DNA of 64,000 nt from Venenivibrio stagnispumantis (GTDB lineage: Bacteria > Aquificota > Aquificia > Aquificales > Hydrogenothermaceae). Both the position numbers and the translations under genes were made by a program. The stretch lies in NCBI RefSeq assembly GCF_900182795.1, contig NZ_FXTX01000001.1:1-64000 (forward strand), written 5' to 3'. Below the pieces are notes generated by a model. The model saw only the letters and a program-made list of their open reading frames with translations. It was not told where the DNA came from and did no database searches. Below, in pieces: positions 39,825-61,448 of the stretch (position 1 is the first letter of the stretch; every line of letters begins with the position of its first letter).

Positions 39825-40345
39825 AAAAATCAATATTTGAAAAACCTTCCATGGTAGAAGAAATCTTTATTCCAAAAGGTTCTGTTTATGAGGAAATTTA
39901 TAAAAATTCATTGATAGGAAGTTTTTTTGAAATCATTCTAAAAGTAGGAGATATGGATGATTTTAGAGTTTTAACAGAAAAATCTGCAGAGTTATTTTTT
40001 GAAAAAAATAAATCTTTATTTATGAGTATGAAATCTTATTCTATTTCTATTGATAGTTTAAAAAATATGGTTATAACATTAAATCAATTCTTGGATTATC
40101 ATAAATTGGGAGCCGTAAAAATAGCCATAAAAGAAAAAGAAAGTAGTTTTTATATTATACATTATAATTCTCCTTTTGCTTTAATGCTAAAAGAAAAATC
40201 TAAACAGAATGTATGTTTTTTCTTCTCTGAATTCTATTCTAAAACTTTTTCCTTAATATTTGATAGACCTATAAAAATAATGGAGGATAATTGTGCAGCT
40301 TATAATAAAGAGGATTATTGTATTTTTAAACCTTCTAATATTTAG
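39788..40345 (+). CDS. V4R-like domain protein of the cellulose operon
   Basis: 185 residues, soluble. The start ATG at 39788 lies inside the end of bcsA and has a good AAGGAG...AAGGT site. The C-terminal part (FFSEFYSKTFSLIFDRPIKI, then DNCAAYNKEDYCIF) resembles the end of 4-vinyl-reductase (V4R) domains, where a C-x7-C-x-F pattern closes a small-molecule-binding fold. Its place between bcsA and bcsB is where accessory bcs genes are found. It could be a ligand sensor or an assembly factor of the synthase. It is not recognisably BcsD. Function unproven. Confidence 0.6.
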   Translation: MGIFSKKFEENLEKSIFEKPSMVEEIFIPKGSVYEEIYKNSLIGSFFEIILKVGDMDDFRVLTEKSAELFFEKNKSLFMSMKSYSISIDSLKNMVITLNQFLDYHKLGAVKIAIKEKESSFYIIHYNSPFALMLKEKSKQNVCFFFSEFYSKTFSLIFDRPIKIMEDNCAAYNKEDYCIFKPSNI

Positions 40346-42443: not shown

Positions 42444-43428
42444 GTATCTAATATTTAGCATAATTGCTATCTTTTTAGTTAAACCTGTATTATCGGCAGA
42501 TTGGGAGAGTTTTAAAGCTAAATTTATGAAAAATAATGAATATATAGTTGACCCTTACAATAATTATAGGGTTACTTCAGAAGCTCAGGGATATGGAATG
42601 CTAATAGCAGTTTTAAATAATGATAAATATACTTTTGACAAGATGTTAAATTGGAGTATAAATAATTTACAAAGAGAAGATAAACTTTTTAATTGGCATT
42701 GGAATGGTGGTAAAGTTATAGATAAAAATAATGCCTTGGATGGAGATTTATTTATAGCATATTCTTTATTAATGGCTTATAAAACTTGGAAAGATGAAAA
42801 ATATATTAATTTATTTAATCAAATTTTGCCGGCAATAAAACAGCTTATTTTGCCAATTTTGTGGGATAATAATGAAAATATTTTATTAATACCGGCAAAA
42901 TATGGTTTTATTCATGAAAATGAAGGAACAATTACATTAATACCAAGTTATTATATACCTTTTATCTTTAATGAATTTTATAATTATACAGCTGATGAGA
43001 TATGGGAAAAGTTATATAACTATACATTAAACCGGATTTACTCAATAAGAGATATTCCTTTCTCGGTTGATTACTCCTTATTTAGTAAAAATATTTGCAA
43101 AGTAACAAATTATGTAGATATTGATACTTATAGAATAATATTATATGCATATCTTGACGAAAATGTGGATATAATAAGAAGCTCAGGTACTTTCCAGAAA
43201 GTTATTGAATTTTATAAAAAAGAAGGTTATATACCAATTAAATTTTTCCTTGATGGAACTCCTCAAACAAAAGAAAATTCACCTTATTGTGTATACAGAT
43301 GGTTTTATTTTATTTATAATGATAAAAAACTTTTAGAAATTTACGAAAAGAATAAAGAGATAGATAAAAACAATTATTTTTGTGAAGCTCTTGATCTTAT
43401 TGAAAAAGGGCTTAAAAGAGGTAAATGA
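42433..43428 (+). CDS. bcsZ: Endo-1,4-beta-glucanase BcsZ (GH8)
   Basis: 331 residues with a signal peptide (about 1-21, cleavage near VLSA-DW). GH8 residues are conserved: the catalytic acid Glu50 in VTSEAQGYGM, WHWNGG, and Asp103/Asp105 in NALDGDLFIAY. It is periplasmic and trims cellulose, which paradoxically is needed for normal output in other bacteria. The GTG start overlaps bcsB by 11 bases and the stop overlaps the next gene by 4. Confidence 0.92.
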   Translation: MKFRYLIFSIIAIFLVKPVLSADWESFKAKFMKNNEYIVDPYNNYRVTSEAQGYGMLIAVLNNDKYTFDKMLNWSINNLQREDKLFNWHWNGGKVIDKNNALDGDLFIAYSLLMAYKTWKDEKYINLFNQILPAIKQLILPILWDNNENILLIPAKYGFIHENEGTITLIPSYYIPFIFNEFYNYTADEIWEKLYNYTLNRIYSIRDIPFSVDYSLFSKNICKVTNYVDIDTYRIILYAYLDENVDIIRSSGTFQKVIEFYKKEGYIPIKFFLDGTPQTKENSPYCVYRWFYFIYNDKKLLEIYEKNKEIDKNNYFCEALDLIEKGLKRGK

Positions 43429-46400
43429 TGGCTGTTAAATTTTTAATGTTGATATTGCTTCTGTTTAATTTTAGTTTTGCTTTTTATTTAAAGATACCGG
43501 TTAAATCTGAAAAAGAAATAAATGAAAAATTAAAAATACTCCAAGGAATAGGTTTTAATAACTGCATTATATTAAAAGATGCTATTATATGTGATGGAAA
43601 AGATGATATATATGAATTTTTAAGAGCAAGAGATTATCTTAGAAGATATAATATTATTTCTTATATAGTGGAAGATAAACCTTCATTTATTGAAAAATCA
43701 GAACAAACCAAAAAAGAAGAAAAACCAGTAGAAAAATCAGCACAAAATAAAGAAGAACCAAAAAAGGAACAGTTTTATAAAGAAATTACAAAAGAAGAAA
43801 AATCTGAACCAATATTAAAAAAAGAAAGAGAGGATAAAGCATTTGCAAAGGAAAGAATTGATAAAACAAAAGCAGAAAAAAAAGAACAAAAAGATAAAAC
43901 TGTTTATAAAGCTGATAAAAAGGTAGAAGAGGATTTAGCCGGAAAAAATTTATTTTGTATACAACTTGGTGCTTCAACAAATCTTAGCAAAGATTTATTA
44001 TCAAAATATGAAAATATAAAAAATTATCCTTTTGCAAGAATAGAAAAAATAGATGGATATTTTAAGCTTTTAATAGGAGCATTTAAAAATAGAAATGAAG
44101 CATCAAGTTTATTGAAAGAGTTGAAAAGCAGTTTTAAAGATGCTTTTATAAGAGAATGTAATATAGATAAATCAAGGATTGTTTATCCTAAAAATCAAGA
44201 TTACCAAATATCTACATCTTCTGATAAGAAAGAAATTACTCAACCAAAACAGAAAGATGATATATTAGAATTTATGGAAAGTAAAATATATCCTATCAAA
44301 AAAGAAGAAACAAAAGAAAATATAGATAATATTCAAACAAATACATCAAAAAAAGAAAAATCAATAGAAAGTCCGGAAAAAAATTCTGTAGAACTTTTAT
44401 ATGAAAATTTAAATAGTGGAAATTTAGATAAAGCAGAAGATATAGCCCAAAATTTATTAAGAAAAAATCCTAAATCTTTTGATGCTTATTTTGTACTCGG
44501 AATAATTAATTTAAAAAAGAACGAATTTAAAAGTGCTTGTAGCTATTTAGAAAAAGCTTATCAATTAAATAAAAGAAAAGATGCTAAAAATTTAAGGGAT
44601 GATGCATGTTTTGCATATTATATAAATCAAGGATATTCAAATATAGAAACACGACCTTTAGTAGCTATATCTTTATTTAAAAATGCAAAAGAATATAAAT
44701 ATGATATTAAAGCAGACATCGGAATAGGATATGCATACATAAATGCAAAAGATTATGAAAAAGCTTATTTAATATTTAAAAATCTTTATGATAGGTATCC
44801 GGATAATGATGATATTTTAAAAGGTTATATAATAACATTAAATAGGTTAAATAAAAAAGAAGAATTGAACCAAGTTATCTCAACATTACCAAAAGAAAGA
44901 TTAAAAAATTTATCTGATATTTATCTTTATGTAGAAATTGAAAATATAAATAAATTGATAAAGGAAAGAAAATTTGATGAAGCTGAAGCCAAATTAAAAG
45001 AATTATATAATAAATATCCTTCTAATATAAATGTATTGCTTGCTTTTGGAAATTTATATACAGAGCAAGGAAATTATCTAAAAGCCAAGGATTTTTATGA
45101 AAATATTCTAATATTAGAACCGGATAACATTTATGCTTTACAAGGTCTAAAATTGGTTTATATAAAAGAAGGAAATTATGATAAAGCTATAGAAATTATT
45201 GAGAAATTAGAAAGAAAAGGAATAAAAGTAGAAGATAAAGAAAAAATTTACGCTATTTATTATCTAAATAAAGCTGAGGAACTAAAAAAACAAGGCAATT
45301 TAGATGAGGCTAAAAGAATATATGAAAATATATTAAAAACCCAGCCGGATAATACATTAGCTCTAATTGGAATTGGAGATATATATCAAAAGAAAGGAAA
45401 CAAAAAAGAAGCATTCAATTATTACTCAAAAGCTTATTCCTTGGCTAAAGATAATTTTGATATAAAGATTAAATTTTTATATGCTTTATTAGATTTAAAT
45501 CTTTTTGCACAAATTAAAACCATATTAGAAGACATTGATATAAATAAATTATCTTTAGAACAACAAAGGGAGTTAAAAAAATTTTATAAAGCTTTATATA
45601 TAAAGTATGCAACTTATTTATATGAAAATAAAGATTATGAAATGGCTCTAAGAGTAGCAAGAGAAGGAATTTTGTTATTTCCGGAAGATTCTGACTTAAT
45701 AGCTATGGTAGGATGGAGCTTTTATCAATTAAAAGATTATCAATGTGCAGAAGATAACTTTAAAACATCTTATACTTTATCCGGAGATGAAAAAATTGCC
45801 ATAGGACTTGCATATGTTTATCTGAATACTGGAAAGAAAGAGCAGTTAAAACAACTTCTTCAAAAATTAGAAAACAGCACAAATCCGGAAATTTTAGTAG
45901 ATGTAGCAAATATTTATGCTTCAATAGGAGATTATAAAAAAGCAGAGAAGACTTTAGAAAATGCTAAAATTTTAAAAAATCAGGGAAGAGTTACAGAATT
46001 TAGTCCTAAATCTGAAGAAACAAAAGTTATACAAACCCAGCCTAAAACAATAGAAAAACCTAAAACAATAATACCAAACCCATTTATCCAACAGATAGAT
46101 ACAGATTTTGATTTAAAAAAAAATGAAAGAATAAATTATAATTCTTCAGATATTCCGGAAAAAGATGTTGCATATATTGATAAACAAGAAAATTCTGATA
46201 TAAATAAAAAAATAGAGCAAGTTAAAAAAATGATAGAAGAAAGCAAGCAAAATTATATATCAAATGTATCTATTGGTGGAAAATTTAGATATAAAAGTGG
46301 TGATATAGGAACCGGAAAATTACTAATTTTTTCTCCATTTGTAAAAGGTGAATACTTTTTAAAACCGGATTTAGCTTTATATTACGGTGCATATTATCCA

Positions 46401-47309
46401 TTCATAAGTTCAGGTGGAAAACCAGACTATACAAAATTTGGAACCGTAGATAACCCTGTTATAAGAGATACGGATACTTCTGCCTCCGGTTTAGAACCAT
46501 TCTTAGGAATTAAATATAATAGAGATTATATCTTACGGGCAGAGCTTTCATATTCTCCTATAGGAAATACAGCAGTAAAATCAACATTCCTTGGTAATTT
46601 TGAAATAGGAAAAGTATTAGATGATAATAAAATAACTGTTGAAGCTGGAAGATATAGTGAAAAAAATACACTTTTATCTTATGTAGGAGCACAGGATCCA
46701 CATTCTAACAATTCTTGGGGTAGAGTTACAGAAACAAGATTAGGAGTAAATTATGAAAGAATGCTTGATAAAAATGATAGTTTGATATTTTCTAGTTTAA
46801 GATATGGTAAATTGGAAGGTGAAAATACAAATAAGAATGATAAGATAGATGTCATACTTTTACCAAAAATATATATAGGAGAAAATATTTTAACAAAAGA
46901 TTATGTTGGCTTATATACACAATTTATGTCTTATAAGAAAGATGAAGATTCTTTTTATTATGGAGAAGGAGGATATTTTTCTCCTAAAAGTTATCTTATG
47001 TTAGCTCCTATGTATGAAGGATACTATTTTTCTAAGGATAGCTCTTTCGGCTTAATGGCAAAAATAATGGCCGGATTATTGAGTATAAAAACTTCCAAAT
47101 ATACAGAAAATACCTTTGCATTTGATGGATTTTTTGCAATTGAAAAGCTATTAACCAGCAGGATATCTGCATATGGAGGTTTAGATTTGAGAAAAACAGC
47201 ATCTTACTCTGAACTTTTTTATATGATGGGAATTAATTATTATTTTGACCAGAAAAATAGATTAAATAGACAGGATTTACAAAAATATGAGAAGGAAATA
47301 ATAAAATGA
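43425..47309 (+). CDS. bcsC: BcsC-type cellulose export porin with an added SPOR domain
   Basis: 1294 residues. In order: signal peptide (about 1-19); a Lys/Glu-rich linker (about 85-170); a SPOR-like domain (about 175-250) with NLFCIQLGAS...YFKLLIGAFKNRNEA; a long TPR array (about 325-870) with many DAYFVLGI- and YDKAIEI-type repeats; a second linker; and a C-terminal BcsC beta-barrel (about 945-1294) with NVSIGGKFRYKSGDIG, FVKGEYFLKPDLALYYGAYY, SGLEPFLGIKYN and a barrel end. It takes the glucan through the periplasm and outer membrane. The SPOR domain, which binds denuded peptidoglycan at septa, is not part of standard BcsC. Confidence 0.88.
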   Translation: MMAVKFLMLILLLFNFSFAFYLKIPVKSEKEINEKLKILQGIGFNNCIILKDAIICDGKDDIYEFLRARDYLRRYNIISYIVEDKPSFIEKSEQTKKEEKPVEKSAQNKEEPKKEQFYKEITKEEKSEPILKKEREDKAFAKERIDKTKAEKKEQKDKTVYKADKKVEEDLAGKNLFCIQLGASTNLSKDLLSKYENIKNYPFARIEKIDGYFKLLIGAFKNRNEASSLLKELKSSFKDAFIRECNIDKSRIVYPKNQDYQISTSSDKKEITQPKQKDDILEFMESKIYPIKKEETKENIDNIQTNTSKKEKSIESPEKNSVELLYENLNSGNLDKAEDIAQNLLRKNPKSFDAYFVLGIINLKKNEFKSACSYLEKAYQLNKRKDAKNLRDDACFAYYINQGYSNIETRPLVAISLFKNAKEYKYDIKADIGIGYAYINAKDYEKAYLIFKNLYDRYPDNDDILKGYIITLNRLNKKEELNQVISTLPKERLKNLSDIYLYVEIENINKLIKERKFDEAEAKLKELYNKYPSNINVLLAFGNLYTEQGNYLKAKDFYENILILEPDNIYALQGLKLVYIKEGNYDKAIEIIEKLERKGIKVEDKEKIYAIYYLNKAEELKKQGNLDEAKRIYENILKTQPDNTLALIGIGDIYQKKGNKKEAFNYYSKAYSLAKDNFDIKIKFLYALLDLNLFAQIKTILEDIDINKLSLEQQRELKKFYKALYIKYATYLYENKDYEMALRVAREGILLFPEDSDLIAMVGWSFYQLKDYQCAEDNFKTSYTLSGDEKIAIGLAYVYLNTGKKEQLKQLLQKLENSTNPEILVDVANIYASIGDYKKAEKTLENAKILKNQGRVTEFSPKSEETKVIQTQPKTIEKPKTIIPNPFIQQIDTDFDLKKNERINYNSSDIPEKDVAYIDKQENSDINKKIEQVKKMIEESKQNYISNVSIGGKFRYKSGDIGTGKLLIFSPFVKGEYFLKPDLALYYGAYYPFISSGGKPDYTKFGTVDNPVIRDTDTSASGLEPFLGIKYNRDYILRAELSYSPIGNTAVKSTFLGNFEIGKVLDDNKITVEAGRYSEKNTLLSYVGAQDPHSNNSWGRVTETRLGVNYERMLDKNDSLIFSSLRYGKLEGENTNKNDKIDVILLPKIYIGENILTKDYVGLYTQFMSYKKDEDSFYYGEGGYFSPKSYLMLAPMYEGYYFSKDSSFGLMAKIMAGLLSIKTSKYTENTFAFDGFFAIEKLLTSRISAYGGLDLRKTASYSELFYMMGINYYFDQKNRLNRQDLQKYEKEIIK

Positions 47310-48034
47310 TTATAACAGTAGCTTCTTTAAAAGGAGGTGTAGGAAAATCTACAGTAGCTTTAAATATTGCATATGGATTATCAACAAAATATAAAGTTTT
47401 ACTTATAGATTCAGATCCTCAAAACAGTATATCATCTTTTTTATGTACAGATTTCAGCAAAGGTTTTTCTGAAGTATTATTTGGAGATGTTGCTTTAAAA
47501 GATGTTATTATCAAACCTTATTTGGATAATAATAATTTTTTTATAATACCAACCGGATTAAAAAGTTTAAGATATACTGAAAAATATGAAGAACTTTTCG
47601 ATTCTGAAAGCTTTAAAGAAGTTATTAATCAGATAAAAGAATTATCGTTTGATTTTGTTTTATTTGATACTCCTCCAAGAATCTCTAAACAAAATGAAGC
47701 TTTATTAAAGAATTCTGATTATTTCTTTATAGTAGTTAATCCGGATCCTGCTTCTTATGCTTCTTTTTATCTATTTTTAGAATTTTTAAAAGAAAATAAT
47801 CTTGAAAATTTTTATGTAATAGTTAATAAAGTAGAAGCAACTGAAATAGCAGAAGAATTTAGTTTAGCCATAAAACATAAATCAAGTAATCGGATAATAG
47901 CTTTTGTACCTTCTGATATTGTAGTAACAGAATCGGAAGGTAAATGTGAACCGGCAATCAAAAGAAATCCGTCATCGGCATTTTCTTTATCTATAAAAGA
48001 GTTGATAGATAACTTTTTAAAAATCTTAAGTTAA
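47306..48034 (+). CDS. bcsQ: ParA/MinD-type ATPase BcsQ
   Basis: 242 residues with the deviant Walker A VASLKGGVGKSTVALNIAYG (residues 5-24), IDSDPQNS, and the FVLFDTPPRISK switch. BcsQ positions the cellulose machinery, at a pole in E. coli. Here it closes the operon rather than opening it, overlapping bcsC by 4 bases. A septal SPOR domain on BcsC and this localiser together point to a spatially fixed synthase. Confidence 0.9.
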   Translation: MIITVASLKGGVGKSTVALNIAYGLSTKYKVLLIDSDPQNSISSFLCTDFSKGFSEVLFGDVALKDVIIKPYLDNNNFFIIPTGLKSLRYTEKYEELFDSESFKEVINQIKELSFDFVLFDTPPRISKQNEALLKNSDYFFIVVNPDPASYASFYLFLEFLKENNLENFYVIVNKVEATEIAEEFSLAIKHKSSNRIIAFVPSDIVVTESEGKCEPAIKRNPSSAFSLSIKELIDNFLKILS

Positions 48035-49354: not shown

Positions 49355-49834
49355 ATGAGAAAATTTGCAATCTTAATTATATCAGCATTCTTCTTATTGT
49401 CTTGCTCTACAGTTACAAATATTCAAAATACAAAATTAGAAAAAGATAAAAAAATTGTTATTTTGCCATTAAAAAATAATACGGAAACTATCTATGCCGG
49501 TAAAAGAGTATCAAGTATTATTAGAAATATTTTACAAACAAAAGGTTATGATGTTGTTTATATAGAAACAAAGGATGATGAAAATATTGATATAGACAGA
49601 TATAAAGAGTTAGCAAAAAGTAATGGTGATTATATTTTAATCGGAGAAGTTAATGAGTTTAGATATAAAACAGGAATAGATGGAGAGCCGGCTGTAAATA
49701 TTTCTCTTAATCTTATTGATTTAAAATCAGATAAAGTAGTGTGGTCTGCTGTTGGTTCTAAAACTGGCTGGGGACATGAGTCTATTACTACTATTGGACA
49801 AAAATTGATAAATGAATTATTTAGGAATTTTTGA
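49355..49834 (+). CDS. pelC: PelC-like outer-membrane lipoprotein
   Basis: 159 residues with a lipoprotein signal ending in the lipobox FLLSC (Cys17). The mature part has the PelC alpha/beta outline (KIVILPLKNNTETIYAGKRVSSIIRNIL, GDYILIGEVNEFRY, KVVWSAVGSKTGW). In Pseudomonas PelC forms a dodecameric ring under the outer membrane that funnels the positively charged Pel polymer to PelB. It opens the Pel operon, and its TGA overlaps the pelD start (TGATG). Confidence 0.82.
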   Translation: MRKFAILIISAFFLLSCSTVTNIQNTKLEKDKKIVILPLKNNTETIYAGKRVSSIIRNILQTKGYDVVYIETKDDENIDIDRYKELAKSNGDYILIGEVNEFRYKTGIDGEPAVNISLNLIDLKSDKVVWSAVGSKTGWGHESITTIGQKLINELFRNF

Positions 49835-51063
49835 TGTTAAAAAGATTTTTTAGAGTTGAAACAGATTTATTTACAATAGGTATCCTTTTTGAGGTAATTT
49901 TATTTAGTATAATATATTTTGGTATAGGATATTTTTACAATAAGACAGACCCTTTTTTAATAAAGCAAGAAATAAACTTCCTTCTTATATTTTTATTAAC
50001 TTTAACTCTTTTTTATGGTTTAGCAATAGGGTTATTAATTATATTTTTATTTGCTGTTTTTATGTATTATTACTATCATCCATTTCCAATATATTATTTT
50101 TTAGAAAATTTGGTGGTTGTATTAATTGCCGGTGAATTTAATTTCTTTTATAAAAAAAGTTTTAAAAGACTAAAAGAAGAAAATAAATATATAGAATCTA
50201 AAATTAACCAACTTAGAAATGCTTTTTATTCTTTAAAATTGTCCCACGACCAACTTGAAAAAAGTTATATTTTAAAACCGGTTAGTTTAAGGGCTATTTT
50301 ATATGATATAAAAAATCTTACTTTACAAAATGAAAAAGAAGCTGCAGAAGAAGTCATGAAAATAATTGTTAAGTTATTTGATGTTAAACAAGCATTATTT
50401 TTAAAAGATAATCAAATATTAGCTTATATTGGAGAAAAATTTAGTATAAATCAAGATGATGAGATGATAAAAACTGCCATAGAAGAAAAAAGAGCCGTAT
50501 ATATTGCAGAAAATATAAATAAGGAAGAGCTTGGTGAAGAATATCTTGCCGTTATACCGGCTATAAATATGGAAAACGAAATAACAGGATTATTCATAAT
50601 AAAAGAAATGCCTTTTTTAAATTTTAATAAGGAAAATATAATGGTTATATCTATAATAATTTCTTTATTTGCAGATTTCTTAACATATAAAAAATCCGTA
50701 GAAAAATATAGAGATATTAGTTTATGTGAGCCGGAGTTTATGTATGAAGTTGATAGATTAACCAAATTACAAAAAGATTTTGGTATAGAAACCCATTTAG
50801 TAATGTTTAAATATTATGAAAAGTTTAATATAGATAAAGAAGAATTTTTTGAATTTATAGAGAATAATATAAGGACCGTAGATATGGTTTGCAAACAAGG
50901 AGATATTGCCATTGTTTTATTACCTTTTGTGCCTTTATCAGGTGCAAAAGCTTTTCAAGAAAGGATGAAAGAAAAATTATATCAAGAATTGAATATAGAA
51001 TTATTTTATAGCAAAATTATTAAATTAGAAGAGAAAAATATAAATAAAATATGGAAATATTAA
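49834..51063 (+). CDS. pelD: PelD-like c-di-GMP receptor
   Basis: 409 residues: four N-terminal membrane helices (about 8-105), a coiled segment (about 108-140), a GAF domain (about 145-290) and a degenerate GGDEF domain (about 300-409). The diguanylate-cyclase active site is gone, but an inhibitory-site-like RTVD motif (Arg347-Asp350) is retained in the position used by Pseudomonas PelD to bind c-di-GMP. Arg377 may be the second arginine. It should license Pel synthesis at the inner membrane by activating the PelF-containing complex. The ATG at 49834 is preferred over TTG at 49831. Confidence 0.88.
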   Translation: MLKRFFRVETDLFTIGILFEVILFSIIYFGIGYFYNKTDPFLIKQEINFLLIFLLTLTLFYGLAIGLLIIFLFAVFMYYYYHPFPIYYFLENLVVVLIAGEFNFFYKKSFKRLKEENKYIESKINQLRNAFYSLKLSHDQLEKSYILKPVSLRAILYDIKNLTLQNEKEAAEEVMKIIVKLFDVKQALFLKDNQILAYIGEKFSINQDDEMIKTAIEEKRAVYIAENINKEELGEEYLAVIPAINMENEITGLFIIKEMPFLNFNKENIMVISIIISLFADFLTYKKSVEKYRDISLCEPEFMYEVDRLTKLQKDFGIETHLVMFKYYEKFNIDKEEFFEFIENNIRTVDMVCKQGDIAIVLLPFVPLSGAKAFQERMKEKLYQELNIELFYSKIIKLEEKNINKIWKY

Positions 51064-51065
51064 TT

Positions 51066-52076
51066 ATGAATTATAAAAAATTATCTATTTCCTTATTATT
51101 AGAAATGTCTGCAATAGCTTTTTTATTAATGAATAATTTATATGGGATAATAGTTTTTTATACTTTCCATAGTTTAGCAAGTTTTATACTCAGTTTGGTT
51201 CTTTATCCCCTAATCCCTATAAAATTTAAGATTAGAAACAATAAGATATTTTTTATATTTTTTGTAACATTAATTCAAATTGCTACATTGTTAGTTGGAT
51301 ATATATTCTTTATTTTCATCGTTTTGTGGTTACTTAGACACCAGGAAAAACCAGAAGAAAAATTTTTAGATAAATTTTCTTATTCAGAAATTTTTGAGTT
51401 TCCTTCTGTAAAAAGACAATTCGGAGAGTCTGCAATTATAGAAGTTTTAACAGGAAAAACTCAAAAAGCTACAAAACTAAAATTAGTATCTCTTTTATCT
51501 GAATTTAAATCAAAAGAAGCTATTCAAGTAATAAAAACATTACTTTCTGAAAAAGATGACGAAATTAGATTGATGAGTTTTGGTATTATAAATAAAATTG
51601 AAACAAAGATTAATAGAGAAATTAAAGAGAAATTAGATATATTAGAAAAAAAGTTAGATAATTTAGAAAAAGCTTATATTTATAAAGATTTGGCCAAATT
51701 ATATTGGGAATTAGTTTATCTTGAAATAGCTGACAAAGAGATAGAAAAATTTTTACTTGAAAAGGTAAAATATTACATAGAAGAGAGCAAAAAATTTGGT
51801 CTTGAAGATGCAGAAATATTCTTTTTAGAAGGAAGAGTTTTACTCGAAATTTACAAAGAAAAAGAGTTTTTAAAAAAAATAATTTTAGAACAGGCTTTAA
51901 ATAAATTTTTGGAAGCAATTAAATATAAATATCCCAAAGAAAAAGTTTATCCTTATATAGCTGAAATTTATTTCTATAAAAAAGAATACAAAAGATTAAA
52001 AGAAATTCTACAAGAGATTAAGGATATTGCTAAATATGATTTTAAATTATATCCGATATTAGAAGTATGGGAATAA
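51066..52076 (+). CDS. pelE: PelE-like inner-membrane TPR protein
   Basis: About 336 residues: two or three N-terminal membrane helices (about 8-90) and a cytoplasmic, TPR-like helical C-terminal part (EKAYIYKDLAKLYWELVYLEIADKEIEKFL, YPYIAEIYFYKKEYKRLKEIL). This architecture and its place between pelD and pelF identify PelE, a partner of PelD/PelF/PelG in the synthase complex. Sequence similarity itself is low. ATG 51066 has GGAA 9 bases upstream; an in-frame ATG at 51051 overlaps pelD. Confidence 0.8.
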   Translation: MNYKKLSISLLLEMSAIAFLLMNNLYGIIVFYTFHSLASFILSLVLYPLIPIKFKIRNNKIFFIFFVTLIQIATLLVGYIFFIFIVLWLLRHQEKPEEKFLDKFSYSEIFEFPSVKRQFGESAIIEVLTGKTQKATKLKLVSLLSEFKSKEAIQVIKTLLSEKDDEIRLMSFGIINKIETKINREIKEKLDILEKKLDNLEKAYIYKDLAKLYWELVYLEIADKEIEKFLLEKVKYYIEESKKFGLEDAEIFFLEGRVLLEIYKEKEFLKKIILEQALNKFLEAIKYKYPKEKVYPYIAEIYFYKKEYKRLKEILQEIKDIAKYDFKLYPILEVWE

Positions 52077-52079
52077 ATA

Positions 52080-53591
52080 ATGAGCTATATAAGAAAAGCT
52101 GATAATGTAGATATTTTGATATTGGCAGAAGGAACATATCCTTATATAAAAGGTGGAGTATCTTCTTGGATACATCAACTAATATCCGGTTTAAAAGATT
52201 TTACATTTGGTGTGGTTTTTTTGGGAAGTAGAAAGGAAGATTATGGTGAGATAGGCTATAAGCTTCCTGATAATTTATTACATTTAGAAGTCCATTATCT
52301 ATTTGATAATTTTGATAAACCTGTGATAAGAAAGCTTAAAGGGAATAAAAAATCTTTTAAGAAAGTAGAAGAACTTCATAATTTTTTTAAAGAAAAGAAA
52401 GAATTACCGAAATATTTGAAAAATTTAGATTTTTACAATAAAGAGGTTGATTTTCCTCAATTTTTATATAGCAAACTTTCTTTTGAAAGAATTGTAAATG
52501 AATATATGAAACATTGTCCCGATTTGCCATTTATTGATTATTTCTGGACAGTCAGGAATATACATTATCCTATTTGGAAAATTACGAAAATTGCAGAAAA
52601 TTTAAATATTGCAAAAATATACCATAGTCCTTCAACAGGTTATGCTGGATTTTTGGGGTCTTTGCTAAAATTTAGTTTTAAAAAACCTTTTATACTTACA
52701 GAACATGGAATTTATACAAGGGAAAGGAAAATAGATTTACTTACTGCTGAGTGGGTAAAAGAACATAAACCGTATTTATTAAAAGGTTCTATTGAAGAAA
52801 ATTATATCAAAAATATGTGGGTAAAGTTTTTTGAAGGTATAAACTATTTTTGTTATGAAGGAGCAGATAAAATCTTATCTTTATTTGAAGGGGCAAGACA
52901 GATACAGATCAGTTATGGAGCAAAAGCCGAAAAAACAGAAGTTATACCAAATGGTGTTGATATAGAAAGATATATAAAACTCGTTCCTGAAAAAGAGAAA
53001 TATAAAAATTTAAAAACAATTTCACTTATAGGCAGAGTTGTGCCTATAAAAGATATTAAAACTTTTATAAGAGCTATTAGAATAGTTGTAGATAAAATTC
53101 CTGATGTTCAAGGATGGATAGTAGGACCTGAAGACGAAGATAAGGAGTATGCGCAAGAATGCAGAGATATGGTTAAGATGTTATCTTTGGAAGATAATGT
53201 AAAATTTCTTGGATTTCAAAAAATAGATGAAATACTGCCTAAAACAAAAATATTAACTTTGACATCTATCAGTGAAGGTATGCCACTGGTAATATTGGAA
53301 GCATTTGCAACAGGGACACCGGTTGTAGCTACTGATGTAGGTTCATGTAAAGATTTAATATATGGCTCCTTAGATGAAGAAGATAAGGAAATAGGACAGG
53401 CAGGATTTGTAACATCCATAGCAAACCCTACAGAACTTGCAGATAAATATATAAAATTATTAACTGATGAAAATTTATGGAAAGCCTGTCAGAAAGCTGC
53501 ATTGGAAAGGGTAAAAAAATATTATTCTCAAGAACTATTTTTCCAAAATTATAGAAGAGTATATGATGAGGCATTAAGATGGCAGGAATAG
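52080..53591 (+). CDS. pelF: PelF glycosyltransferase (GT4)
   Basis: 503 residues. The PelF hallmark AEGTYPYIKGGVSSWIHQL (about 17-35) is present, followed by FGVVFLGSR and a GT4 C-terminal half with IPNGVDIERY, ISLIGRVVPIKDIKTFI and SEGMPLVILEAFATGTPVV (the E-x7-E type site). It is a cytoplasmic GT-B enzyme that polymerises GalNAc/GlcNAc from UDP-sugars in Pel synthesis. It ends 13 bases inside pelG. Confidence 0.95.
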   Translation: MSYIRKADNVDILILAEGTYPYIKGGVSSWIHQLISGLKDFTFGVVFLGSRKEDYGEIGYKLPDNLLHLEVHYLFDNFDKPVIRKLKGNKKSFKKVEELHNFFKEKKELPKYLKNLDFYNKEVDFPQFLYSKLSFERIVNEYMKHCPDLPFIDYFWTVRNIHYPIWKITKIAENLNIAKIYHSPSTGYAGFLGSLLKFSFKKPFILTEHGIYTRERKIDLLTAEWVKEHKPYLLKGSIEENYIKNMWVKFFEGINYFCYEGADKILSLFEGARQIQISYGAKAEKTEVIPNGVDIERYIKLVPEKEKYKNLKTISLIGRVVPIKDIKTFIRAIRIVVDKIPDVQGWIVGPEDEDKEYAQECRDMVKMLSLEDNVKFLGFQKIDEILPKTKILTLTSISEGMPLVILEAFATGTPVVATDVGSCKDLIYGSLDEEDKEIGQAGFVTSIANPTELADKYIKLLTDENLWKACQKAALERVKKYYSQELFFQNYRRVYDEALRWQE

Positions 53592-54955
53592 GCTTTGAAC
53601 TTAGAAAAATCTTAAAGGAAAACAGTTTACTTTCTATTCTCAAAGTTTACGGATACTCTGCTGTTTTATCTTCCGGTAGTTGGATTATTTCTATATTAAG
53701 TATTGTTTTTATTGGAATTGTTAATATATATATTACAAAAAAATATACAGATATAGTTCAATTTCAGGTAGTTATAACTTATCTCATTGCTTTTAGTTTG
53801 ATTTTTACAGGGTTTTTTCAGCTATCTTTTACAAGATATATTGCAGATAGACTTTTTGAAAAAGATTATAAAAGGGTTTTGCCTAATTATTTTGGTGTTT
53901 TGTTTATAACTTTTTTAGTAGGTCTTTTAGTTTTTATTCCTTTATCATTATGGATTTTCCCCCAGCAGAGTAATTTGTTTAAAATTCTTTTTATTTCTTC
54001 TTTTCTTGTATTATGTGGTATCTGGCTTTCTAACTCTTTATTACTTGGGCTGAAAGAATATAAAAAAATAGTTTCTTTCTTTGCAATAGGATATCTAATT
54101 GTTATAATTTTGAGTTATTTAATTAGAAAATTTGGATTAGATGGATATTTGTTTTCTTTTTTCTTAGGTAATAGCTTTATATTTTTCTCTATAGTTTATC
54201 TTATTGTTAAACATTATGAATCTGATAAATTATTTGAACTTGATTTTTTATTAAATAAAAAACATAGAATATATTTTTCTATTGCCGGTGCTGGACTTTT
54301 TTATAATCTCGGTATTTGGATTGATAAATTTATATTTTGGATACATCCGGAAACAAATTATAATGTAATAGGCAAACTTAATGCTTCTATTGTTTATGAT
54401 TTACCGATTTTCTTAGCGTATCTGTCAATAGTTCCTGGAATGGCTATATTCTTTTATAGATTAGAGGCAGATTTTGCGGAAAAATATGATAATTTATTTA
54501 ATGCCATTAGGACAGATGGAACTTTTGAGCAAATTATAACATATAAAAATGATATGATTGAAACTATTCGTATAGCAATAAAAGAAACTATCATTACCCA
54601 AGGAATATTTAATATTTTAATTTATATCTTCTCAAAAGATATATTCAAGGTACTTAATATTCCTTTATTATATTTACCATTATTTTACATTGATTTAGTA
54701 GGTGTTCAATTGCAATTAGCATTTATGGCTATTCTTGCTATACTTTTTTATATTGATAGAAAAAGAGAAAGTTTGTTTTTAACTTTATTATTCTTTTGTT
54801 TAAATGGAATTTTTTCTTATCTTTCTATTAAAGCCGGATATATGTTTTACGGTTATGGATTTGCTTTATCTTTACTTATCTCTTTTATTGTATCTCTTAT
54901 TATATTAAGGAGGAATATAGATGATATTGAGTATGAAACGTTTTCTTTACAGTAA
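53579..54955 (+). CDS. pelG: PelG inner-membrane transporter
   Basis: 458 residues with about twelve membrane helices in an MOP/Wzx-like layout. The N-terminus MAGIGFELRKILKENSLLS is the characteristic PelG start; SGSWIISI and GAGLFYNLGIWIDKFIFW follow. It moves the polymer made by PelF across the inner membrane. It overlaps pelF by 13 bases and pelA by 35. Confidence 0.95.
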   Translation: MAGIGFELRKILKENSLLSILKVYGYSAVLSSGSWIISILSIVFIGIVNIYITKKYTDIVQFQVVITYLIAFSLIFTGFFQLSFTRYIADRLFEKDYKRVLPNYFGVLFITFLVGLLVFIPLSLWIFPQQSNLFKILFISSFLVLCGIWLSNSLLLGLKEYKKIVSFFAIGYLIVIILSYLIRKFGLDGYLFSFFLGNSFIFFSIVYLIVKHYESDKLFELDFLLNKKHRIYFSIAGAGLFYNLGIWIDKFIFWIHPETNYNVIGKLNASIVYDLPIFLAYLSIVPGMAIFFYRLEADFAEKYDNLFNAIRTDGTFEQIITYKNDMIETIRIAIKETIITQGIFNILIYIFSKDIFKVLNIPLLYLPLFYIDLVGVQLQLAFMAILAILFYIDRKRESLFLTLLFFCLNGIFSYLSIKAGYMFYGYGFALSLLISFIVSLIILRRNIDDIEYETFSLQ

Positions 54956-57653
54956 ATTATTATTTATATTTCTTTTTATTTATGGTGTAAGTTTTGCAAA
55001 TGAAAATTTAAATTGTGGTGTTTTATTCTATTATAAGGATAAACCTCCTCCAGAAGCAGTAAAACTTTTTGATTATATAGTAGTTGATCCGGATGTTGTA
55101 AATAAAGCAGAAAAAAAATATGTTGCTTATTTATCAGTAGGAGAAATAGAGCCTTATAGAAATTATTACAAGAATATAAAAAAAGAATGGATTATAGGTG
55201 AAAATAAAGTTTGGAAAAGTTATATAGCAGATGTATCTAATCAAGATTATATAGCTTTTCTGATGAAATTAGTTGATAATTTATATCAAAAAGGATATAG
55301 AGCTATATTTTTTGATACCTTAGATAGTTATCAGCAAGTTGTAAAACAAGATAAATGGAATATTTATGCAACTTCTATTGGAAATTTTGTAAAACAAGTT
55401 AAATATAAATATCCTGATATAAAAATATTTACCAATAGAGGATTTGAATTTATAGATAACTCTTTTAATGGTATTATTGATTTTGTTGTTGCAGAAGGAT
55501 TATTTAGTTCTTACGATTTTAAAAATCAAAAATATAAAGATGCTTCTTTTTCTGATACAAAATGGCTACTTGATAAATTAAATTATGTAAAACAAGTAAT
55601 AAATGCAAAGATTATAGTTATAGATTATACCGATAATAAACAAAAAGCCATAGAATATGCTAAAAAAATAAAATCCCTCGGATTTATTCCGTATGTGGCA
55701 GATATAAATCTTGAAACCATAGGTATAGGAAATTGTATATATAAACCAAGAAAAATTTTAGTAATTTATAATGATGAAGCATCTAAGGATTTTTCCAAAA
55801 CAGTTGCTTACAGACTTATACCTATTGCACTTGAATTTATGGGATATATGATAGAAGGAGTAAATCCTGATAAAGAGAACCTTCCGGAAAAGACCTTAGA
55901 TAGATATGCAGGAATAATTGTAATTCCTGAAAGTAGTTCTTTCAAAAATGAAAATTTTTTTCAATGGATAAAAAAAAGAATAGATGAAGGTAATAAAGTT
56001 TTATTTTTAAATTATTTTGGATTTGATATAACAGAAGATAATATGAAACAACTTGGAATAGAAATATCACAAAATCAGGATAAAAAAGATTTTAAAATAA
56101 AAAAAGCAGAAAAATATACAGGTTTTGAAGCACCGATAGATACAAGCTATACGGATACTTTATTTTCTATAAAAGAAGGAAAACCGGTTATAGAGCTTGA
56201 AAATAGTATTAATCAAATCCATATTCCTGTTGCCATAACAAAATGGGGTGGATATGCACTTTCAGAAAATTTTTTAATTTCTTCTCCGAATGAACTATTT
56301 ATTATAGACCCATTTATTTTTATAAAAGAAGCTTTAAGATTGGAAGATATTCCGGCGCCTGATATAACGACAGAAAATGGAAGAAGAATATTTTTTTCAC
56401 ATATAGATGGAGATGGTTTTATAGAAAAAGCAGTATTTAATCCATCTAAATATGCAAGTCAAATAATAAAAGAAGAAATCTTTGAAAAATATGATATACC
56501 TATTACCGTATCTATCATAGAAGGAGAGATAGCACCTTACGGAATTAGACCTCAAGAATCTGAAAAACTTGAAAAAATAGCAAAAGAGATATTTGCTATG
56601 CCAAATATAGAGATTGCAAACCATTCTTTTTCCCATCCATTTAAATGGCAAAATTTGGAGGTAGAAGGAGAAAAAGAAGGTTATAACCTGAATATACCGG
56701 GTTATAAATTTTCCTTAGAAAGAGAGATAATTGGTTCTACAGAATATATAAATAATAAATTGGCTCCGGAAGATAAAAAAGTTAAAGTGTTCCTATGGAC
56801 AGGTGATTGTAATCCGTCAGAAAATGCTTTAAAGCTTACTTATCAAATAGGTCTTTTGAATATGAACGGTGGCGGTTCTACAATGACAAATCTAAAACCT
56901 TATTTAGCTCAAAACTATCCAATAGGTGTCAAAAAAGGAGATTATTATCAGATATATGCACCAAATCAAAATGAAAATGTTTATACAAATCTGTGGACAA
57001 GCAATTTTCACGGATTTGTAAATGTAATTCAAACATTTAAATTAACAGATAAACCAAGAAGAATTAAACCTATTAATGTTTATTATCATTTTTATTCCGG
57101 TTCAAAGTTATCATCATTAAAAGCATTGAAAGAAGTATATGATTATGTTTTATCACAAAAAATCACTCCTATGTTTGCTTCCCAATGGATAGAAAGAGCT
57201 TTAGATTTTTACAATACCGTATTGGCACAGGATTTAGAAGGTAATTGGTTAATCAAAACTGATGGAAAATTAAGAACAATAAAAATACCAAAATCAAAAG
57301 GTTATCCTTCAATTACTGAAAGCGTAGGAATAATAGGTTTTAATGATTACAATAATGAAAGATATATACATTTATCAAATGGTGATAAATATTATTTGGT
57401 TTTAAAAGATAAACCGGAGAATAATATTTATTTAAAAGAAAGCAATGCAATGATAGAAAAATTTGAAAAAAATAAAGATGGATTTTATTTAAAATTAAAA
57501 GGATATTTACCGGTTGAAGTTATATTTTCAAATGCAAAAAATTGCGTTATTAAATCAGATAAATATATAAATATAAAAAATATAAATGATGAACTCATCA
57601 TAAACTCAGAAGAGAAAGAGGTTAATCTAAATGTACAATGTTCCAAAAAGTGA
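54921..57653 (+). CDS. pelA: PelA hydrolase/deacetylase
   Basis: 910 residues with a signal peptide (about 1-25). The N-terminal part (about 30-275) is a GH114-like TIM-barrel hydrolase (YVAYLSVGEIEPYRNYY, AIFFDTLDSYQ). A central flavodoxin-like region precedes a CE4-like deacetylase (about 490-760) with FFSHIDGDGF and IANHSFSHPFKW, which hold the metal and catalytic residues, and FLWTGDCNPSENALKL. It partially deacetylates Pel in the periplasm, which makes the polymer cationic and exportable, and can cleave it. An AAGGAGG site supports ATG 54921 inside pelG. Confidence 0.93.
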   Translation: MILSMKRFLYSKLLFIFLFIYGVSFANENLNCGVLFYYKDKPPPEAVKLFDYIVVDPDVVNKAEKKYVAYLSVGEIEPYRNYYKNIKKEWIIGENKVWKSYIADVSNQDYIAFLMKLVDNLYQKGYRAIFFDTLDSYQQVVKQDKWNIYATSIGNFVKQVKYKYPDIKIFTNRGFEFIDNSFNGIIDFVVAEGLFSSYDFKNQKYKDASFSDTKWLLDKLNYVKQVINAKIIVIDYTDNKQKAIEYAKKIKSLGFIPYVADINLETIGIGNCIYKPRKILVIYNDEASKDFSKTVAYRLIPIALEFMGYMIEGVNPDKENLPEKTLDRYAGIIVIPESSSFKNENFFQWIKKRIDEGNKVLFLNYFGFDITEDNMKQLGIEISQNQDKKDFKIKKAEKYTGFEAPIDTSYTDTLFSIKEGKPVIELENSINQIHIPVAITKWGGYALSENFLISSPNELFIIDPFIFIKEALRLEDIPAPDITTENGRRIFFSHIDGDGFIEKAVFNPSKYASQIIKEEIFEKYDIPITVSIIEGEIAPYGIRPQESEKLEKIAKEIFAMPNIEIANHSFSHPFKWQNLEVEGEKEGYNLNIPGYKFSLEREIIGSTEYINNKLAPEDKKVKVFLWTGDCNPSENALKLTYQIGLLNMNGGGSTMTNLKPYLAQNYPIGVKKGDYYQIYAPNQNENVYTNLWTSNFHGFVNVIQTFKLTDKPRRIKPINVYYHFYSGSKLSSLKALKEVYDYVLSQKITPMFASQWIERALDFYNTVLAQDLEGNWLIKTDGKLRTIKIPKSKGYPSITESVGIIGFNDYNNERYIHLSNGDKYYLVLKDKPENNIYLKESNAMIEKFEKNKDGFYLKLKGYLPVEVIFSNAKNCVIKSDKYINIKNINDELIINSEEKEVNLNVQCSKK

Positions 57654-58590
57654 GCCGGTAATTTTATATAGGGAAATAGTTGCTTTATTTGTAATATTTA
57701 TCATAATCTTATATTTATTATATCCGGCAGATAAAATATTAGAATTAGTACAAAAAGAAGAAAGCAATATAGATTTAACAATAACTTATCTTGAAAAGAT
57801 ACAAAAAACAAATCCTGCTGATATATCAATATGGGAAAGATTATTAGAACTTTACATAAGAAAAGGAGATTACAATAAAGCAAACGATTTAATAGAAAAG
57901 ATGGGAAATTATCCTAAGGAAGATATTTCATCAAAAGCTGTATTATTAAGATTCATATTAAATAAAAATTTATATTATGCAACAAATAATCAAAAATATA
58001 GATTGATATTATCAAATATGGCTGAAAATTTATTAGAAGGATTTAAAGATGATAAAATAAGATTAGCAGAGCTTTATAAAGATTATTTATCACTAGCAAT
58101 GCCAGATAAAGCATTATTCTTTGCAAAAGAATTAGCAATATTGTATTTAAAAGAAAAAGATTTTAAAAATGCAAAAATATGGCTTGAAAATGTTTATAAA
58201 CAAGCATTAGCCACATCTAATTTTGACGAAGCTTTAAAAGCTCTAAAAGCATTAATATCAATTGAACCGACAAATATCACTTATTATGAAAATCTTGCAA
58301 AAATATATATTGCAAAAAAGGAGTATAAAGAAGCATCAAATATATACTTACAATTAGCCGAAAAAGATATTACAAAAAGAAAAATATATATAATAAAAGC
58401 TATAAAAACATTACAATCAGGAAATATGTTATCAGATGCAGCAGAATTGGCAAAAAGAAATGAAAAATTATTAATTCACAATAAAGCCGATTTTGAATTT
58501 TTGATGAAACTTTATATTGCAACTGGTAAATTAGAATATGCAAAAGAACTTGCTATAATGTATGGAAAGAGCGTAGGGGCATTAAAATGA
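57631..58590 (+). CDS. Membrane-anchored TPR protein, N-terminal part of a split PelB
   Basis: 319 residues: one membrane helix (about 16-34) and then TPR repeats through the periplasmic region (ISIWERLLELYIRKGDYNKANDLI, NITYYENLAKIYIAKKEYKEASNIY). In Pseudomonas a single PelB of about 1190 residues has an N-terminal anchor, TPRs and a C-terminal barrel. Here the anchor plus first TPRs form this gene and the remainder the next. GAGG sites and 23-base/4-base overlaps show that both frames are translated units rather than a sequencing frameshift. Confidence 0.75.
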   Translation: MYNVPKSEPVILYREIVALFVIFIIILYLLYPADKILELVQKEESNIDLTITYLEKIQKTNPADISIWERLLELYIRKGDYNKANDLIEKMGNYPKEDISSKAVLLRFILNKNLYYATNNQKYRLILSNMAENLLEGFKDDKIRLAELYKDYLSLAMPDKALFFAKELAILYLKEKDFKNAKIWLENVYKQALATSNFDEALKALKALISIEPTNITYYENLAKIYIAKKEYKEASNIYLQLAEKDITKRKIYIIKAIKTLQSGNMLSDAAELAKRNEKLLIHNKADFEFLMKLYIATGKLEYAKELAIMYGKSVGALK

Positions 58591-61448
58591 AAATGAAGAA
58601 TATTAAATATACTCTATTATTAATGGCAATTTTAAATTGTAGTATATATGCCGAAGATATAAAAAATAATCCATCTTTCAAAGAAATAAAAAAAACTGAA
58701 GAAAATATAAAACTTCCGATAGATGAAAATTTATTAAAACTTTCTTTTCAAATATTTTTACAAACAAGAGATTTAGAAAATGCATATAAATTAGCTAAAT
58801 TTGCAGTAGAAAAATTTCCTGATAGCATATATTGGAGAAAAAATCTTTTTATGGTTTCCCTTTGGACACAGCATTTAGATGATGCTTACGAATCTGCAAT
58901 ATTTTTATTTAGAAAAAAGGTAAAAGATATAAAAGATTTAGAAAAAACTGTATATTCTCTATCTATATACAAAGGAGATTATTTCACTATTTCTGAAATT
59001 CTAAAAAAAGATATAGAAAGAGGCAACCTGAAAAAATTAGATGAATTTGTTTATATAAATACAGAAATACTTGGCAATATTAATGAAACAATAGATTTTT
59101 TAAATAATATTTATCAAAAAATTGATGATAAACAGCAAAAATTCAATATATTAAAGGCTCTTTTTAAGATATATTACGGATTAGAAGATATTAAAAATGC
59201 AAATCTAATTTTAAATAAAATAGAAGAAGAAAATTATCTTGGATTTGTTGATGATGATTTTGCTATGCTTGCTTCTGATATATATTTTGTTCAAAAAGAG
59301 TATAAAAAAGCATTAAATATATTGAAAATAGCAATGCCAAAAGCAAAAGATAATAATTTAGATTACTGGAAAACATTAAGTGATATGGCTGTTTTTATAA
59401 AAGATTATGAAACAGCATATGAAGCCTCAAAACATCTTTATAAGATAGATAAATTCAGAGATGTAGATATAGAAAGAATATATTTATATTCTAAGGATAA
59501 TAAAGAAAAAGAAGAAATATTATTAAAAGGGTGGGAAAAATTTAAAAAACCTTATTATGCAATTTTATATATCAATTTTTTAATGGAAACAAAACAGTAT
59601 GAAAAGGCATTAGCTTTTGCCGAAAAAACAAAAGATGATATTACTTTAAAAAATGATATGATTTTTTATCTTTCTCTTGCAAATTTATACTACACTTTGA
59701 AAGATTATGAAAAAACTAAGGATATTTATCTATATTTGATTGCTAAGACAAGTAGTTTATCCGTTAAAGAAAGTTTATTATGGCTCTTAATGGAAATAAA
59801 AGATAAAGATTTGGATTATTATTTAAAAGCTTTTGAAAATGATGTTGCTAAGAATAAAAATTTGGCTTTAGTTTATGCTTCTGCATATTTTCAAAAACAG
59901 AAATATAATGTTGCAGTTGCATATTTGAAGGAATATATAAAATTTAAAGGTGCAACACCGGATTTACTATCTCTTTATGCAGATATCTTACAAGCAGCCG
60001 GTAGAGATGAAGAAGCAGAAAATATAAGAAAGCAAGCTTATACCTTGATTATTGAAAAATTGAATAAAGAAAAAGATTTTTTTGAAAAAAGAGAAAATAT
60101 ATCAACATATCTTAGATTATCTATATATTACAAAACACCGGAAGAGTTTAAAAAATTATTTATAAAATACAAAGATAAATTAGAAGAACAGGAAAGAAAA
60201 GATTTAGAAATTTTATATTATTTGCAAAATAATGAGCAAGAAAGAGCGAATTATTTGATGAGAAAGTATAGTTATAGCCAGCCCTGGATGCTTCTTAATG
60301 TTGCTTTAACTTTTAATGATAAAGATATGATGGAAGATTTACTTTATAAATATATAAATTCATTACCAACAAGGGATAGAGTAGAAGCAGCAAGAAGAGT
60401 CGGAAATATTCAAGAAGCTTTTGAACTTGCTTATGAAGGACTTGAAGAAGAAACCCAATCTAAAATAAAATTACCTTCCCAAAGGTCAGAAGATTATCAG
60501 TTATATAAACAATATTTAGATTTAATAAAAGAAAATAGTAATAATCTTACACTTATACAAACATTTCAAAGAAGAGATGTATTAGATACATCAAATACCA
60601 ATATTAATTTATATCAGCATATAGCTAAATCTTTTTATATTGATTTAAATTTAGATTGGTATTATTTTAAATCTTCAAATAAAAACACACTTATAAACCT
60701 CCCTTCCTTGGCAAAAAGATTAGATATAGAATTTATAAAAAGATTAGATTTAAACTCAAAAATATATTTTTCACTCGGTTTAATTGATTCTTTAAAATCT
60801 ATGGCTATTTATGGTTTTGGATTTGATTATTATATTCTTAATAACTCAATGTTAGGTCTATCGTATAATTATGGAAAAAAAGCTGATGAAACTACTTATC
60901 TATTAATAGGTGGATTTAAGGAAGAATATAAATTATCAATTACTAATAATTTAACTTCTAAAAATACAGTATACGGAAGTTTAGCATATCAAAGATTTTA
61001 CTCCCAAGATAAAAAATTATTAGGTAGTGGTAAAAATTTATACTTAGAGTATGCTTACTATTTAAGACGTGGTTATCCGGATATTACATTAAGAAATTAT
61101 TTTAGTTATGGTATTTATGATGAGAAAAATTGCCGAGATTGCATTATAAATCAATTATCACCTTATTTAAATACACAATTTTTGCCACAAACATTTTATG
61201 AATATGGAGCTGGAATTATAATTGGAGAAGTTAATAGATTAGGTTATACAAGGGTAGTTAGACCTTTTGGACATTTAACGGCATCGTATAATAATAAATA
61301 TGGTATAGGATATAATTTTGGGGCAGGGATAGGAGGGCATATATTTAAGCAAGACCATCTTTCTATTGGATTTAACATAGGTAGAGGATTTAAATCTGCA
61401 AAAGATTACATTTATGAAATATTTGAAATTTATAATCTTTTCTACTAA
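58587..61448 (+). CDS. pelB: PelB-type outer-membrane Pel exporter (TPR + beta-barrel)
   Basis: 953 residues: its own signal peptide (about 1-22), a TPR/helical-repeat periplasmic domain (about 45-640) and a C-terminal beta-barrel (about 650-953, for example KSFYIDLNLDWYYF, FGFDYYILNNSMLGLSYNYG, GIGYNFGAGIGGHIF) ending in aromatic residues. It gives passage to Pel through the outer membrane and its TPRs bind PelA in the known system. The separate signal peptide indicates that it is secreted independently of the anchored TPR protein upstream. Confidence 0.85.
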   Translation: MKMKNIKYTLLLMAILNCSIYAEDIKNNPSFKEIKKTEENIKLPIDENLLKLSFQIFLQTRDLENAYKLAKFAVEKFPDSIYWRKNLFMVSLWTQHLDDAYESAIFLFRKKVKDIKDLEKTVYSLSIYKGDYFTISEILKKDIERGNLKKLDEFVYINTEILGNINETIDFLNNIYQKIDDKQQKFNILKALFKIYYGLEDIKNANLILNKIEEENYLGFVDDDFAMLASDIYFVQKEYKKALNILKIAMPKAKDNNLDYWKTLSDMAVFIKDYETAYEASKHLYKIDKFRDVDIERIYLYSKDNKEKEEILLKGWEKFKKPYYAILYINFLMETKQYEKALAFAEKTKDDITLKNDMIFYLSLANLYYTLKDYEKTKDIYLYLIAKTSSLSVKESLLWLLMEIKDKDLDYYLKAFENDVAKNKNLALVYASAYFQKQKYNVAVAYLKEYIKFKGATPDLLSLYADILQAAGRDEEAENIRKQAYTLIIEKLNKEKDFFEKRENISTYLRLSIYYKTPEEFKKLFIKYKDKLEEQERKDLEILYYLQNNEQERANYLMRKYSYSQPWMLLNVALTFNDKDMMEDLLYKYINSLPTRDRVEAARRVGNIQEAFELAYEGLEEETQSKIKLPSQRSEDYQLYKQYLDLIKENSNNLTLIQTFQRRDVLDTSNTNINLYQHIAKSFYIDLNLDWYYFKSSNKNTLINLPSLAKRLDIEFIKRLDLNSKIYFSLGLIDSLKSMAIYGFGFDYYILNNSMLGLSYNYGKKADETTYLLIGGFKEEYKLSITNNLTSKNTVYGSLAYQRFYSQDKKLLGSGKNLYLEYAYYLRRGYPDITLRNYFSYGIYDEKNCRDCIINQLSPYLNTQFLPQTFYEYGAGIIIGEVNRLGYTRVVRPFGHLTASYNNKYGIGYNFGAGIGGHIFKQDHLSIGFNIGRGFKSAKDYIYEIFEIYNLFY

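Follow-up and report, generated by a model that had tools for sequence, protein, structure and literature searches.

The 2025 PelBC structure paper (PMC12141448) suggests that a single chain of PelB may form a physical bridge between the two membranes. We analyzed a window of 64,000 nucleotides from Venenivibrio stagnispumantis (Aquificota, Hydrogenothermaceae; GCF_900182795.1, contig NZ_FXTX01000001.1, positions 1 to 64,000), in which two open reading frames (ORFs) in different frames, pelB1 and pelB2, directly follow pelA where one continuous polypeptide would be expected. The pair together, and neither gene alone, therefore stands for PelB. The genes upstream of the pair are as follows:

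49355..49834, + strand: pelC-like lipoprotein gene (lipoprotein-family matches weak and below cut-off; phmmer matches at the pelC place in other pel operons)
49831..51063, + strand: pelD (PF16963, 26.0 bits, 1 below the cut-off of 27)
51051..52076, + strand: pelE, by position (phmmer matches in other pel operons)
52080..53591, + strand: pelF (NF038011, 647.2 bits)
53579..54955, + strand: pelG (PF16933, 451.5 bits)
54921..57653, + strand: pelA (GH114 domain, 69.8 bits, and position)

The operon thus has the order pelC-D-E-F-G-A-B1-B2 and spans positions 49355–61448. PelF and PelG scored above curated cut-offs and PelA was assigned by its hydrolase domain, while PelC and PelE were assigned by position and phmmer only; a family search with the pelE product returned nothing above cut-off. 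The pair accordingly shares a pel operon with PelA and with PelC, the latter as assigned by position and phmmer, and its PelB2 is the only one in the whole genome (1.56 Mb, 41 contigs). Directly upstream of the operon, at 40293–48034, lies a cellulose (bcs) cluster with bcsB, bcsZ, bcsC and bcsQ-like genes, and its BcsC-like ORF (43425–47309) carries a SPOR domain (31.9 bits) N-terminal to the TPRs.

The two genes and their parts are listed below:

57631..58590, + strand: pelB1, 319 aa, inner-membrane-anchored TPR protein (ORF; TPR Pfam matches; AlphaFold2 pLDDT 94.0; profile)
57667..57720, + strand: PelB1 membrane helix, residues 13–30 (hydropathy and AlphaFold2 model)
58471..58578, + strand: last TPR of PelB1, residues 281–316, proposed docking end (conservation; model)
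58587..58590, + strand: ATGA overlap of the pelB1 stop and the pelB2 start (sequence)
58587..61448, + strand: pelB2, 953 aa, exported TPR rod and 16-strand outer-membrane barrel (ORF; PF13429; PF24604; model; Foldseek)
58587..58652, + strand: PelB2 putative export signal, about residues 1–22 (hydropathy and reading of the sequence)
58725..58865, + strand: first TPR helices of PelB2, residues 47–93, proposed docking end (conservation)
60543..61442, + strand: PelB2 beta-barrel, residues 653–952 (PF24604 at residues 650–933; 16 strands)

An earlier note, made from the sequence alone, had described PelB here as two overlapping genes with their own starts, the first product an anchored TPR protein and the second an exported TPR-barrel protein, and the analysis agrees with it on each of these points. 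Of the two proteins, only PelB1 has an N-terminal inner-membrane helix. In its AlphaFold2 model, TPR-type helices follow the membrane helix up to residue 314, and the final helix pair (285–297/301–314) is complete and lacks a capping helix. A Pfam scan of PelB1 matched several TPR families and no barrel, Foldseek gave generic TPR matches only, and no AlgK-type lipobox cysteine was found near the start of its sequence.

PelB2 matched TPR_15 (E 2.2e-38) and the PelB_C barrel PF24604 (E 1.2e-35; 124 bits against a cut-off of 31), a TPR rod preceding the barrel both by PF13429 and in the models of the two halves. Its model (pLDDT 89.3) has a hydrophobic start at residues 6–16, a low-confidence stretch at 20–43, TPR helices from residue 47 and 16 strands at 653–952, and the rod begins with a complete helix pair, again without a capping helix. 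Its best fold match in the PDB was P. aeruginosa PelB (9h80_M; E 1.8e-17, TM 0.82 by target length). The putative export signal is modest, with a mean hydropathy of 1.65 over 15 residues, and the hydrophobic stretch is followed by a putative SIYA/ED cleavage site, read by eye. The sequence AGGGGC lies 6 bases upstream of the PelB2 ATG (0.06 expected in the window, for a pattern picked after being seen), and an alternative start is possible 6 bases downstream, at 58593. No SPOR domain was found in this PelB2 by the Pfam scan.

To place the cut on single-chain PelBs, we used profiles built from 34 rows (PelB1) and 55 rows (PelB2). On P. aeruginosa PelB (9h80_M), they covered residues 54–314 and 284–1176, respectively, and they lay in order and side by side on six other single chains: three from beta-proteobacteria and three from one-frame relatives described below. 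Together with the models, this mapping puts the cut between TPRs, a point that the earlier note had proposed to check. In P. aeruginosa PelB, TPRs 1–19 correspond to residues 69–726 and PelA binds TPRs 9–14 (PMC12022489). Assuming even TPR spacing, the cut falls near TPR 7, which by homology to P. aeruginosa would put all of the PelA-binding repeats on PelB2. Because the TPRs are alike among themselves, exact repeat boundaries are approximate. The overlap of the two profiles was ≈28–35 residues for P. aeruginosa PelB, L034 and L123, but a gap of 12 to 97 residues separated them for L108 and the three beta-proteobacterial chains; a duplicated TPR at the cut is therefore not claimed. On the beta-proteobacterial PelBs, all from plasmids, the uncovered stretch was 33, 92 and 97 residues long and had no repeat pattern visible by eye in the alignment, so that even in a single chain the rod can be interrupted at the split site.

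The earlier note had also proposed looking for the same split in related genomes, and there we found it in 55 complete pairs. In the Aquificota genome search, 50 of 136 genomes had a PelB2 match at E ≤ 1e-3, although a few of these matches are weak and probably represent TPR proteins of another kind. A scan of named genomes gave 21 loci, a phylum search around a Sulfurovum genome (G139) matched 20 of 397 genomes at E 1e-10, and a phylum search around G138 matched 15 of 247, five of these full-length. Combined, the searches yielded 84 non-plasmid PelB2-like ORFs, of which 55 passed a filter for pairs with both genes complete and a PelB2 of more than 800 aa; those dropped were contig-end fragments, interrupted copies, three-piece, single-frame and rod/barrel-cut forms, and the Thermocrinis loci. 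By a taxonomic grouping made in this analysis, 33 pairs are from Aquificota, 16 from Campylobacterota (the Sulfurovum phylum), three from MAGs titled Deltaproteobacteria and three others from the phylum of G138. The 4-base overlap is exact in 38 of the 55 pairs, the spacing is −43 to +4 in 54, and one pair has an 84-base gap. In each split pair, PelB2 has its own start and a hydrophobic N-terminus, and the PelB_C barrel was present in all 52 PelB2 proteins scanned together.

In four genomes from the genus to which Thermocrinis MAGs belong, one of them cut at a contig end, pelB1 is not adjacent to pelB2. Three had a strong PelB1 match 8–9 kb from pelB2 on the same contig; in the fourth, a search for a PelB1 profile match found none. 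The complete locus reads B2-C-D-E-F-G-A-B1, with the halves at opposite ends of the operon. Since the two genes are not neighbours there, translational coupling must be dispensable.

Several loci showed further peculiarities. Five of them (L110, L111, L112, L113 and L114) carry another PelA-like gene, longer than the first, after pelB2, which places pelB1-pelB2 between two pelA copies. In L064 (5194–9050), pelB2 is broken into 761-aa and 177-aa parts around a 278-aa transposase-like ORF, and intact copies are present in close relatives. The pel genes of L047/L097 (G040) lie in converging halves, G-A-B1-B2 and C-D-E-F, on opposite strands; the G040 record is titled Acidobacteria, yet the locus falls among Aquificota. 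In the pelF-pelG clusters of two plasmids, from Cetobacterium somerae (L084) and Sulfitobacter indolifex (L085), a PelB-like gene is not annotated in the stretch shown, and L085 contains in its place a gene of a polysaccharide export family.

Other forms of PelB were found beside the split pairs. Three relatives have PelB in a single frame: L034, from a Hydrogenothermaceae MAG (JALSPY010000292.1; 1252 aa), L108, on a 2.25-Mb contig (1213 aa), and L123 (1204 aa). Three loci have it in three pieces (L070, 314+529+673 aa; L105, 350+526+565 aa; L121, 361+548+573 aa), with a hydrophobic start on each later piece and the second cut between rod and barrel. L124 is cut only between rod and barrel (723+413 aa); its 413-aa piece is presumably the barrel from position and alignment, and a Pfam scan of that piece gave no match. 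Two Azospirillum plasmids have the same single cut: L083 (1018+526 aa), with a barrel match of 22.4 bits, below the cut-off of 31, and L131 (992 and 598 aa), in which the second piece is a putative barrel.

In a tree of 68 rows, from which truncated copies and L124 were left out, the single-frame PelBs fall in three separate places among split forms, a count that does not separate gain from loss of the split. The three-piece forms make up one group (support 97) that unites Campylobacterota and the family of the window. A single clade of single-frame forms was rejected (AU p 9e-49) on 24 chosen rows that were picked after the tree had been seen and tested under a simpler model; two long branches (L119 and L123) meet in these rows, so that the placement of L123 is unsure, as is that of L082 (branch 3.74). 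L034 forms a group with two relatives from its own family whose PelB is split (support 99). Rejoining of the halves is the simplest account of its sequence, judging from this nesting and the outgroup, while L108 and L123 could be unsplit remnants. The genome bin of L034 (G097) also contains L068, so that one of its pel loci has a single-frame PelB and the other a split one.

The ligand of SPOR domains is denuded glycan of peptidoglycan. Pfam reported SPOR close to the PelB2 start at L049 (34.7 bits), L040 (36.7 bits) and L052 (28.4 bits), against a cut-off of 21, and on the third piece of L070 (55.1 bits); at E 0.01, it was found in nine of the 52 PelB2 proteins scanned together. Our own iterated profile, trained on the PelB2 SPORs, reported a SPOR-like domain in 18 of 59 PelB2 proteins and in all three third pieces, and in none of 55 PelB1 proteins, four single-frame or rod chains (L034, L108, L123 and L124) and four proteobacterial single chains. 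For L104 and for the L105 and L121 third pieces, this profile alone, and not Pfam, reported the domain. The near-identical loci L039 and L040 (G100 and G102; branches 0.04), from the genus that holds S. yellowstonense, differ in the PelB2 N-terminus: in L040, a new signal and a SPOR-like stretch replace the old signal, whereas L039 has no such exchange. The old pelB2 start is still present in the L040 DNA at the end of pelB1, with a stop within a few codons. Barring an assembly error, the SPOR-like domain of L040 looks like a recent gain.

Conservation is high on both sides of the cut. The PelB2 helices beside it rank 4, 6 and 1 among 53 elements, and those of the last TPR of PelB1 rank 3 and 6 among 17. 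In the full set, none of 511 sliding segments of the PelB2 rod was as conserved as residues 47–93, and none of 213 segments from residues 33–280 of PelB1 was as conserved as 281–316 (0.413 against a best of 0.412). Both maxima also hold in the Aquificota subset; in the Campylobacterota subset, 21 of 213 segments reach the conservation of the PelB1 end, which is not the top there. The conserved cut ends and the single-frame forms together favour end-to-end docking of PelB1 and PelB2, and we consider it probable that PelB is here two proteins that dock into a non-covalent periplasmic rod. The re-formed bridge imagined in the earlier note thus gains indirect support, from the cut ends being the most conserved in the full set and from single-frame forms in three places of the tree. 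Conservation beside the cut could also serve another partner, such as PelA.

Gene structure, homology, cut position, conservation, spread and the single-frame and further-cut forms are observed; the scheme below goes beyond them and infers the export signals, the docking of the halves, their equal amounts, the binding of PelA by PelB2 and a role in Pel export. The uncleaved N-terminal helix would keep PelB1 in the inner membrane, where its membrane-proximal TPRs, roughly TPRs 1–7 of P. aeruginosa PelB, would take over the Pel chain leaving PelDEFG. PelB2 would be exported separately and insert its 16-strand barrel into the outer membrane, bringing the rest of the rod, including those repeats whose P. 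aeruginosa counterparts bind PelA and lie within the PelC ring. The conserved terminal TPR of PelB1 would stack on the conserved first TPR of PelB2 and give the polymer a continuous TPR path across the periplasm, with a docking joint instead of a covalent chain linking the two membranes. The ATGA overlap may couple translation and so help to produce equal amounts of PelB1 and PelB2.

The strongest competitor, though unlikely, is that the halves do not dock: PelB1 would act alone at the inner membrane as a TPR scaffold serving PelDEFG or PelA, and PelB2 would take up periplasmic polymer without an inner-membrane link. BcsC and PgaA export without an inner-membrane helix, the two genes can sit far apart in the operon, as in the Thermocrinis genus, and the SPOR-like domains on some PelB2 proteins would tether these to the cell wall instead. 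The conservation of both cut ends speaks against it, as does the adjacency of the same two segments in single-chain forms. We think it improbable that PelB1 is an unrelated inner-membrane TPR protein recruited to the operon, PelB2 then being PelB minus its anchor. An engineered TPR protein (9qhb_A, E 2.3e-31) is a better match to the PelB1 profile than P. aeruginosa PelB is (E 1.5e-22), and part of the likeness is thus common to TPRs in general; however, on single-chain PelBs this profile spans the N-terminus and stops at the beginning of the PelB2 profile, and on 9h80_M it reaches from 54 to 314, with PelB2 starting at 284. A sequencing frameshift, or decay of a single gene, is ruled out by the 55 pairs from several phyla, of which 38 share the overlap, by the own start and hydrophobic N-terminus of PelB2, and by the Thermocrinis order, for which a frameshift is no explanation; the continuous frame that the earlier note had named as a sign of local frameshifting does exist in three relatives, but these lie among split forms.

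Docking of the two proteins fits into a wider picture, to which we give not quite an even chance. PelB would be a rod jointed naturally at two sites, first between its membrane-proximal TPRs and the part that binds PelA and again between rod and barrel; in evolution, the joints would have been left covalent, or one or both of them cut. Freed N-termini would gain an export signal and, repeatedly, a SPOR domain; the channel would then be held by the cell wall, and the polymer would arrive through docked, unfused subunits. The added SPOR-like domains suggest that polysaccharide export is linked to the cell wall. The split forms are natural tests, in that Pel export by them would show a covalent bridge to be unnecessary. 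With the membrane-proximal repeats on one gene and those predicted to bind PelA on the other, the two sets also lend themselves to separate study.

The split itself is already known: the legend to Fig. 5 (iii) of PMC7112194 lists "pelB fission ... in aquatic thermophilic species", and most probably this is the arrangement described here, as it occurs in relatives. The window likewise has PelB from two genes in the pel operon of a thermophile, as judged from the names of its relatives. The passages covered in that paper name the fission in the figure legend and network only and do not give the anatomy, the cut site or the further forms; the reach of the split is extended here to Campylobacterota and delta-type genomes. 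Our literature searches, which covered few subscription papers and no supplements, found PMC7112194 alone on the split, and nothing on its anatomy, reach or further forms. The PelBC structure paper cites a Sulfurihydrogenibium gene and a Persephonella gene as PelB homologues, and its main text does not contain the word "split" (PMC12141448).

P. aeruginosa PelB (9h80 chain M) has the same order of inner-membrane helix, TPR rod and PelB-type barrel, and its barrel and last TPRs match PelB2 in profile (E 2e-78) and fold; it is one chain of 1193 aa, whereas the window has two chains, cut at about residue 284–314 of that protein. In the alginate system, the TPR part and the barrel part are likewise separate proteins working together, AlgK being an outer-membrane lipoprotein and AlgE a bare barrel. 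In the window, by contrast, the first piece bears a membrane helix, and most of the TPRs remain with the barrel piece. The cellulose exporter BcsC is also an exported TPR-barrel chain, with SPOR before the TPRs in the BcsC of the window, but it has a different barrel family (BCSC_C), belongs to another operon and is one chain.
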